Assembly: GCA_020724025.1 (NCBI GenBank)
Contig: DYHU01000050.1
Coordinates: forward strand, 12,486 to 17,520
Length of the DNA stretch: 5,035 nucleotides
Direction: 5' to 3'
From: Syntrophorhabdus sp.
GTDB lineage: Bacteria > Desulfobacterota > BSN033 > UBA1163
Below the pieces are notes generated by a model that worked only from the letters and a program-made list of their open reading frames with translations, did no database searches and had not been told where the DNA came from. Numbering within the stretch: position 1 is the first letter of the stretch; each line of letters starts with the position of its first letter. Below are positions 2,033-2,744 of this stretch, piece after piece. The translations under genes were made by a program, and so were the position numbers.

Positions 2033-2449
2033 TTATCTCAACTCATCCAGCGGAATATTGATGACCGTTTCGATGATGGAGATGTGTTTCAACTCTCCCT
2101 CCACTCGGATCATGTGCTTCGATGTCTTGGGAGGCATTCTTCCACTAGTCAAAGCCGTATGAATGATCATCTCCTTTGTAACCTTCTCGCCCTCCCTCCA
2201 GGGGATGACCTCAATTTCCGGCGATTGATAGTCGACCAGGACGACCGGAATTTTTTTACAACCTATCCTTTTCAAAGCATGGAGTCGGTGGTGCCCATCC
2301 AGGATGATGTAAGTACTCTTATCCACGGCAATGGGCATTTTGAGCATCCCATCCGAAAGGATCTCGTTTTTCAATTCCTCGAGATAATCGGGTCGGATCT
2401 CTTCATGTTCTCTCAACTCCTCGATTCTGATAAAAACAATATCAACCAC
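2033..2449 (-). CDS. Small ParB/sulfiredoxin-fold protein, SerK-like (putative free serine kinase)
   Basis: The protein has 138 residues from the GTG at 2449. An AGGAG (2460-2456) abuts an ATG at 2455, too close to serve it, but sits 6 bases before this GTG, so GTG is the preferred start; the ATG would add two residues. Visible motifs (GTG numbering) are an N-terminal strand VDIVFIRIEELREHEEI containing His15-Glu16, then IILDGHHRLHALKRIGCKKIP with DGHHR at 51-55, and a C-terminal PPKTSKH near 106-112 with INIPLDEL at the end. From memory, Thermococcus SerK, an ADP-dependent free serine kinase of about 240 residues, has the same order: VDYVFI...HE (catalytic Glu30), DGHHR, then PKTTRH and a similar tail. 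I infer phosphorylation of serine to O-phosphoserine, feeding cysteine or 3-phosphoglycerate. The protein is much shorter than SerK or staphylococcal SbnI. Alternatives are a ParB-like DNA-binding or CTP-binding regulator. It is the first gene after the glycine riboswitch. Confidence 0.85.
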   Translation of the reverse strand: MVDIVFIRIEELREHEEIRPDYLEELKNEILSDGMLKMPIAVDKSTYIILDGHHRLHALKRIGCKKIPVVLVDYQSPEIEVIPWREGEKVTKEMIIHTALTSGRMPPKTSKHMIRVEGELKHISIIETVINIPLDELR

Positions 2450-2463
2450 GCTCATCTCCTGTC

Positions 2464-2507
2464 AAAATAAAAAGGGGAAGGACAATCGAATATCGATCTC
2501 CTTCCCC
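2464..2507 (-). terminator. Intrinsic terminator, expression platform of the glycine riboswitch
   Basis: On the minus strand GGGGAAGGA (2507-2499) pairs perfectly with TCCTTCCCC (2482-2474). An inner ATCGA/TCGAT stem, a TAT loop and one bulged G complete the hairpin. TTTTTATTTT (2473-2464) follows directly. It ends 8 bases before the first possible start codon of the SerK-like gene. Its 5' arm begins within the 3' strand of the proposed P1 of aptamer 2 (2510-2506), the arrangement expected when ligand-stabilised P1 opposes termination (ON switch). The switching direction is inferred. Confidence 0.9.
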
Positions 2508-2630
2508 CTGTCTTTTGACCTGAGAGATTATCCCTCGGTAAGCTCGGGATTTGTCCCCTTCGGTGTCCCGCCCTTCGGTAAAAACCCAGAGTAAACCTTG
2601 AACTCGTTGAAAGGCGGAAGCTTTCCAGGA
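2505..2630 (-). ncRNA. Glycine riboswitch aptamer 2, with extended P3 arm
   Basis: Proposed P1 pairs TCCTG (2630-2626) with CAGGG (2510-2506). The core ACACCGAAGGGGACAAA and the 3' segment CTCTCAGGTCAAAAGACAG identify it. It departs from consensus in having GGAAAG where GGAGAG is usual, which leaves an A-C mismatch against CTCTC, and GGGGACAAA where GGGGCAA is usual. Between the 5' strand and the core an extra arm is present: CCGCCTTTC (2617-2609) pairs with GAAGGGCGG (2576-2568) in nine base pairs (one G-U), enclosing about 32 bases. ATCCC/GGGAT forms the hairpin after the core. Confidence 0.88.
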
Positions 2631-2638
2631 TTCAGCCA

Positions 2639-2735
2639 AGTTACAGTCCTTTTGCCTGAGAGTTTCTCCCCGACCTTGTCGGGCATTGCCCCTTCGGCGC
2701 CCCTCCCCTTGCGTTTCGAGGTCTCTCCTGTAACC
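2639..2735 (-). ncRNA. Glycine riboswitch aptamer 1
   Basis: P1 is formed by GGTTACAG (2735-2728) with CTGTAACT (2646-2639), seven Watson-Crick pairs plus a terminal G-U. GGAGAG directly follows the 5' strand and pairs with CTCTC of the CTCTCAGGCAAAAGGACTG segment. GCGCCGAAGGGGCAA is the conserved core, and CCCGAC/GTCGGG forms a stable hairpin after it. All landmarks match the family consensus closely. The linker to aptamer 2 is about eight bases. Its TGAA could pair with a leader TTCA (2741-2738) as in the leader-linker helix known for this class, if transcription starts far enough upstream. Confidence 0.95.
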
Positions 2736-2744
2736 TATGAAGTT

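Follow-up and report, generated by a model that had tools for sequence, protein, structure and literature searches.

A tandem glycine riboswitch precedes a short SerK-like gene at the head of a glycine-cleavage operon in Syntrophorhabdus sp.

The described systems closest to the one reported here, a tandem glycine riboswitch followed by a short SerK-like gene in a 5,035-nucleotide stretch of a Syntrophorhabdus sp. assembly (GCA_020724025.1, contig DYHU01000050.1, positions 12,486 to 17,520; the whole stretch is hereafter the window), are the free serine kinase SerK of Thermococcus kodakarensis (TK0378; PDB 5x0b series) and the glycine riboswitches of glycine-cleavage (gcv) operons. Statements on earlier work refer to the parts of those papers that were available. 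Makino et al. showed that SerK phosphorylates serine in an ADP-dependent manner, and proposed a route from serine through phosphoserine to 3-phosphoglycerate which, together with GlyA, would also serve glycine assimilation (PMC5120207). In some Desulfurococcales, genes for a 3-phosphoglycerate dehydrogenase or 2-hydroxyacid dehydrogenase and for an aminotransferase lie near serK (PMC5120207). Serine genes are described as rare in glycine riboswitch regulons, with sdaA in beta-proteobacteria and two mycobacteria, and serC and serA in one Clostridium (PMC3766115); serC has also been reported behind glycine riboswitches in metagenomes (PMC2211319). The open-access literature surveyed, as far as its available text goes (including PMC6944388, PMC3766115, PMC2211319, PMC12704722, and PMC5120207, and with subscription papers mostly outside it), contained no report of a glycine riboswitch-controlled serine kinase; the original prediction likewise knew of no description of this link. 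The parts are known, and the regulatory link that joins them is new.

Read along the minus strand, the window holds an aminotransferase gene, a 2-hydroxyacid dehydrogenase gene, a promoter-like site, the tandem glycine riboswitch, a terminator, the short SerK-like gene, gcvH, and gcvPA (Table 1). We consider it probable that this is a glycine-triggered operon with a minimal free-serine kinase, carrying glycine through serine to O-phosphoserine and on toward 3-phosphoglycerate. Because gcvH and gcvPA follow the SerK-like gene on the same strand, that gene heads a glycine-cleavage operon and is not a substitute for one. The original prediction had overlooked these two genes and had placed the SerK-like gene where gcvT or a glycine transporter gene would be usual; its overall interpretation is partly supported.

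The riboswitch lies directly before the SerK-like gene, as had been claimed, with a terminator between them. The first aptamer is well above the RF00504 threshold, and the second is present but degenerate in the window: the two-aptamer model RF03166 matches 2750-2504 (E 8.2e-15) with 70.6 bits, below its gathering score of 110. In relatives, both aptamers exceed the RF00504 cut-off. The P1 stem of aptamer 2 pairs UCCUG (2630-2626) with CAGGG (2510-2506) in the Rfam alignment, and its 3' strand has AGGG in common with the 5' arm of the terminator (from 2509). The whole leader folds better than 200 of 200 shuffles (z -4.6), with a free energy of -113.0 kcal/mol when unconstrained, where the terminator forms, and -98.5 kcal/mol when P1 is forced and the terminator is broken. 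An overlap of the terminator arm with aptamer-2 P1 is what a glycine-ON switch should show, and the layout of the leader fits that of a glycine-ON transcription switch, the response to glycine being deduced from this overlap. A simple terminator scan missed the riboswitch terminator, probably because its stem is bulged, and folding detected it. A similar hairpin and U run are found in 10 of the 11 leaders examined (the window and G001-G009), and neither was found in the eleventh (G022); four riboswitch relatives without serK (G205, G270, G405, and G401) likewise carry a terminator hairpin. Just upstream of the aptamers, the promoter-like site would provide the leader with its own start. The consensus scan behind it gave three sites in 1650-2860 versus 1.5 expected in shuffles, which is weak alone, and the position of this site fits.

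The arrangement recurs in close relatives. A scan of genome contigs yielded 19 loci, ten of which (L001-L010) come from close bacterial relatives with 73-89% identity. The riboswitch precedes the SerK-like gene in L001-L009, and L010 begins inside the gene; with the later-found G022, every one of the 10 close bacterial relatives with upstream DNA shows the order, which is more than chance. Each of these ten genomes has exactly two RF00504 matches per assembly, namely the tandem pair. Downstream, gcvH-gcvPA follow SerK in all nine close relatives whose sequence extends far enough (that of G005 and G006 stops short), and gcvPB-lipB-lpd-lipA, named from one annotated representative per protein cluster, lie farther downstream in 8 of 8 loci with mapped gene order. 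At L075 (G007), a longer antisense frame overlaps the SerK gene. Across the class, a survey of 23 genomes found the SerK-like gene in 11 and the riboswitch in 15, and five have the riboswitch without the SerK-like gene. Two of those (G405 and G401) run from the riboswitch straight into gcvH-gcvPA, two (G205 and G270) into an aminotransferase gene, as discussed below, and the contig of G403 stops ~40 nt past the second aptamer.

The protein is, by its predicted model, a shortened SerK, and the earlier description of a 138-residue ParB-fold protein with SerK hallmarks stands. Its GTG start is preceded by AGGAG at a distance of 6 nt. In the numbering of the 140-aa form, the key residues are E18, D53-G-H-H-R57, and P109-K-T-S-K-H114. 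In the model, the SerK/SbnI fold spans the whole protein, and the superposition on SerK takes in 131 of 140 residues (1.7 A, 30% identity). E18 aligns with SerK E30, the residue altered in the E30A and E30Q PDB entries. Across 24 sequences, down to 34% identity, HE, ILDGHHR, K110, and H114 are invariant, as are E18 and D53-R57 throughout. The full-length (~240 aa) SerK architecture with its middle region was not found, as the profile aligns to SerK residues 14-105 and 204-229 only.

Table 1. Features of the window, listed along the minus strand (window coordinates)
Feature	Position	Strand	Basis and remarks
Class I/II aminotransferase	5035-3758	-	PF00155; truncated at window edge
2-hydroxyacid dehydrogenase, nearest glyoxylate reductase	3739-2765	-	409 bits vs cut-off 455; PDB 6bii 6e-99
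Sigma-70-like promoter TTGACA-17-CAGAAT	2773-2745	-	Consensus scan; overlaps 3' end of dehydrogenase gene
Glycine riboswitch aptamer 1	2740-2634	-	Rfam RF00504 63.9 bits, gathering score 32, E 4.9e-12
Glycine riboswitch aptamer 2, degenerate in window	2633-2504	-	Part of RF03166 match
Intrinsic terminator hairpin, then U run	2509-2472	-	Folding; hairpin -23.8 kcal/mol
Short SerK-like gene	2449-2033	-	138 aa from GTG 2449; 140 aa if ATG 2455
gcvH, operon gene 2	1708-1322	-	NF002270 166.4 bits, cut-off 117
gcvPA, operon gene 3, runs off window	1415-3	-	NF001696 621.9 bits, cut-off 364

Genomic contexts in other lineages bear on the substrate. In a Desulfurococcales metagenome-assembled genome (L015), the open reading frame of a short SerK (5944-6450) overlaps the start of that of a PALP enzyme (6419-7600) whose best PDB match is CysO, an O-phosphoserine sulfhydrylase (5e-67). 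Full-length SerK relatives were found in four of 395 genomes of the phylum (G358, G304, G285, and G243), and all four are followed by ACT domains. In G358, G304, and G285, these belong to an ACT-ACT-phosphatase that matches SerB with 104-121 bits, under the cut-off of 144, while in G243 the contig ends after them; in G285, an aminotransferase of the alanine-glyoxylate/serine-pyruvate type comes after the phosphatase. In two of the four (G304 and G243), the long SerK stands directly after a fusion of GcvT with serine hydroxymethyltransferase (SHMT). These independent neighbourhoods fit phosphoserine.

The same GcvT-SHMT fusion was matched in 17 of 17 genomes searched of the order, at full length in 14; a contig end truncates it in G008 and G249, and in G404 it is spread over two adjacent frames. 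The fusion proteins are 883-916 aa long (L072:12997-15723, L073:16128-18863, L111:2479-5130, and L128:2982-5732), the pyridoxal phosphate-binding lysine motif is kept in all five fusions checked, and the best PDB match of the SHMT half is 4bhd/4uqv (1e-53), which we take to be a Methanocaldococcus enzyme. In 7 of the 11 serK-bearing genomes, the fusion gene shares contig and strand with SerK and follows it at a distance of 7.5-19 kb; the other four have it on another contig.

Though not proven, the serine-kinase reading has good support. Under it, abundant glycine would bind the tandem aptamers and stabilise aptamer-2 P1, which, to judge from the overlap, would take sequence from the terminator, so that transcription would proceed into the operon. 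The products of the operon would be a minimal kinase of free serine and the proteins of glycine cleavage, joined in relatives by lipoylation enzymes. One glycine would be cleaved to give methylene-tetrahydrofolate, with which SHMT would convert a second glycine into serine. The fold, the catalytic residue, and the neighbours in other lineages suggest that the short SerK would then phosphorylate serine to O-phosphoserine, a step that would pull the reversible SHMT reaction forward and direct carbon toward 3-phosphoglycerate. ADP, ATP, and CTP are all candidate phosphate donors; according to a section heading of PMC12704722, nucleotide specificity cannot be reliably predicted from sequence or with AlphaFold3. 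The present operon would place the glycine-assimilation idea of Makino et al. under direct glycine control.

Four other explanations need to be weighed. An unlikely but not negligible one is that the protein regulates glycine-cleavage and serine enzymes, or serves them as an adaptor, by binding nucleotides: its ParB/SerK fold would be a switch worked by CTP or ATP, without kinase activity. ParB-fold proteins bind CTP, ATP, or GTP, one SerK-like archaeal protein bound CTP (PMC12704722, available text), and the short form is without the middle part of SerK. However, neither the E30 equivalent nor the shared motifs vary, the neighbours elsewhere include enzymes acting on phosphoserine, and the SerK-type fold takes up the entire 140-aa chain, so that no DNA-binding or other extra domain remains. 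That last point also bears on the notion of a DNA-binding ParB-type partition or occlusion protein, which we find scarcely credible even though ParB_N (PF02195) passes its cut-off (28.6 vs 26.3) and several public entries are named after the ParB N-terminal domain or Spo0J. A canonical ParB was rejected because ParB_N is the sole Pfam domain found in the protein and 138-140 aa, the whole chain of which is in the SerK-type fold, leave no room for helix-turn-helix or C-terminal dimerisation domains. The profile matches SerK at 1e-21 versus ~4e-3 for canonical ParB, and the fold match covers the whole chain for SerK versus ~86 residues for ParB. In this comparison, suggested at the outset, the protein groups with SerK and not with DNA-binding ParB.

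The remaining alternatives keep a small-molecule kinase and change its role. It is improbable, in our judgement, that a kinase of this fold acts here on another pathway substrate such as glycerate or a lipoylation intermediate. The presence of lipB, lpd, and lipA in the relatives' operon, and of a glyoxylate reductase-type gene immediately upstream both in the window and in L009, would suit such a substrate. Yet the nearest named relatives are SerK, called a free serine kinase (PMC5120207, available text), and SbnI, called an O-phospho-L-serine synthase, and the pairing with O-phosphoserine sulfhydrylase in L015 points to serine. The L015 overlap is at the same time an argument for the idea that the same kinase mainly serves cysteine synthesis from serine via O-phosphoserine, which is also the demonstrated role of SerK in Thermococcus (PMC5120207, available text). 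For the window we regard that purpose as very improbable: 9 of the 11 serK-bearing genomes have a serine acetyltransferase, cysE, above the TIGR01172 cut-off (the exceptions are G006 and G010), no cysteine synthase is among the annotated operon genes, and glycine control is a poor fit. Cysteine, which had been offered as one product of the drain, is therefore unlikely to be the main one.

A number of observations weigh against a glycine-induced serine kinase, and several concern the protein itself. The ~98 middle residues missing from it (SerK 106-203) may hold part of the active-site cleft. The NCBIfam SerK equivalog NF053625 scores 70.5 bits, far under its cut-off of 380, which is why we name the protein SerK-like and not SerK, and the tryptophan aligned with SerK W102 is a histidine in P0082, L004, and L008. 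A SerK-like archaeal protein binds CTP rather than ATP (PMC12704722, available text). In addition, serB is above its cut-off in 10 of 11 serK-bearing genomes; phosphoserine could therefore simply be hydrolysed, or a regulated cycle is possible.

Other such points concern the genomic context. No RF00504 match was found in the five archaeal genomes with a relative (G011-G015), nor at the four long bacterial SerK loci (L111, L112, L128, and L129), and the riboswitch was also not found in L113 (a weak SerK hit in G085) and L015-L019. Because the riboswitch is missing from the archaeal relatives and from the long-form SerK loci, its link to SerK rests on one order, so that the expected recurrence held for the ten close bacterial relatives and failed for these more distant loci. 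Among the archaeal short forms, the scanned neighbours of L012 (an exchanger), L013 (a nucleoside hydrolase, a tryptophan synthase alpha chain, and a PALP enzyme, a layout shared by L011), and L014 (homoserine dehydrogenase and BioY) show no clear serine link, which counts against a universal serine context. Within the window, the gap of 324 nt between the SerK-like gene and gcvH (1709-2032) holds a terminator-like stem (1820-1797) and G+C-rich repeats. As the corresponding gaps in relatives are 19-188 nt, it may be an insertion that weakens SerK-gcvH co-transcription. Lastly, none of the 11 serK-bearing genomes has a close relative (E 1e-80) of the window aminotransferase, so that a fixed partnership of the upstream aminotransferase-dehydrogenase pair with SerK was not upheld, and the dehydrogenase occurs in only one of ten bacterial serK loci, whose upstream DNA is of varying extent.

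The upstream pair has a pattern of its own. In the serK-less G205, a relative of the aminotransferase is gene 1 after the riboswitch and a relative of the dehydrogenase is gene 2. In G270, the aminotransferase relative is again gene 1, without the dehydrogenase, and is followed by a transketolase-like gene, lipB, and gcv genes. The aminotransferase and glyoxylate reductase-type pair is a second module tied to glycine. As for gcvPA in the window, the NF001696 match begins at residue 37 of the longest frame (frame start 1415), and the true start is probably the ATG at 1322 adjoining the gcvH stop.

Some further loci are recorded as side observations. The aminotransferase and glyoxylate reductase-type genes right after the glycine riboswitch of G205 are at L064:4839-7226. 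At L104:5997-10236 (G382), aminotransferase and glyoxylate reductase-type genes are followed by lipB- and lipA-like genes. In the riboswitch operon of G270, the product encoded after the aminotransferase and before lipB-gcvH is transketolase-like and 786 aa long (L066:1988-4348).

A wider reading involves DUF1015 (PF06245), an uncharacterised family; we know of no characterised member. Its predicted fold is that of SerK and SbnI, the three motifs recur in it (L130-L159 loci; model of L130:1492-2730), and 168 of the 198 phylum genomes sampled carry it. Its proteins differ from the short SerK in their length of 409-469 aa (26 of the 30 loci, where recognised) and in a very low sequence similarity, hhalign aligning only 16 columns. 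Rfam scans of 20 of the 30 DUF1015 loci found no glycine riboswitch nearby, and the neighbours within ~1.5 kb on each side of the 30 loci gave no match to the window genes, the relatives' gcv genes, or the SerK neighbours. We also considered and rejected a mutual replacement of DUF1015 and short SerK. Among the genomes listed from the 198-genome sample, four that carry serK (G001, G007, G009, and G022) are without DUF1015 (chance 4e-4), with 10 further match-less genomes unlisted; but DUF1015 is absent from 22 of 23 genomes of the class whether or not they carry SerK, and therefore kinship, not replacement, explains the pattern.

COG4198, which we take to be the DUF1015 family, was reportedly found behind glycine riboswitches in Firmicutes in 2007. 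It is a tentative idea, and one we do not favour at present, that SerK-fold serine kinases are widespread and mostly unrecognised in the glycine/serine node, as riboswitch-led minimal short forms in gcv operons, as long forms with GcvT-SHMT and SerB-like phosphatases, and as DUF1015, jointly carrying glycine through serine and O-phosphoserine to central carbon and induced by glycine in some lineages. If true, it would account for the 2007 report of COG4198 behind glycine riboswitches, an orphan link. The fold match would offer a candidate function for DUF1015 and a possible reason for COG4198 to stand behind glycine riboswitches in Firmicutes.

To our knowledge, free serine kinase activity is known from few organisms. 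If the probable reading of the window holds, a riboswitch directly switches on a free serine kinase, and bacterial glycine assimilation is regulated in this way. In addition, a minimal serine kinase of 138 aa could reveal what the fold needs for catalysis.

Compared with the systems named at the outset, the window protein shares with SerK of T. kodakarensis the fold over 131 of 140 residues, the E30 equivalent, DGHHR, PK(T)xxH, and the area of metabolism. It differs in being ~100 residues shorter, bacterial, led by a riboswitch, and part of a glycine-cleavage operon, with an activity deduced by likeness. According to the available text of PMC5120207, T. kodakarensis serK forms no operon with other genes, whereas the window gene leads one. 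The serK neighbourhoods of some Desulfurococcales echo the two genes upstream in the window. SbnI, the O-phospho-L-serine synthase that also regulates a siderophore pathway of staphylococci, is longer (PDB chains of 242-256 residues) and belongs to siderophore synthesis. With glycine riboswitch-gcv operons, the locus has tandem aptamers, a terminator, and downstream gcv genes in common, and it differs from them in that a serine-kinase-like gene comes first.
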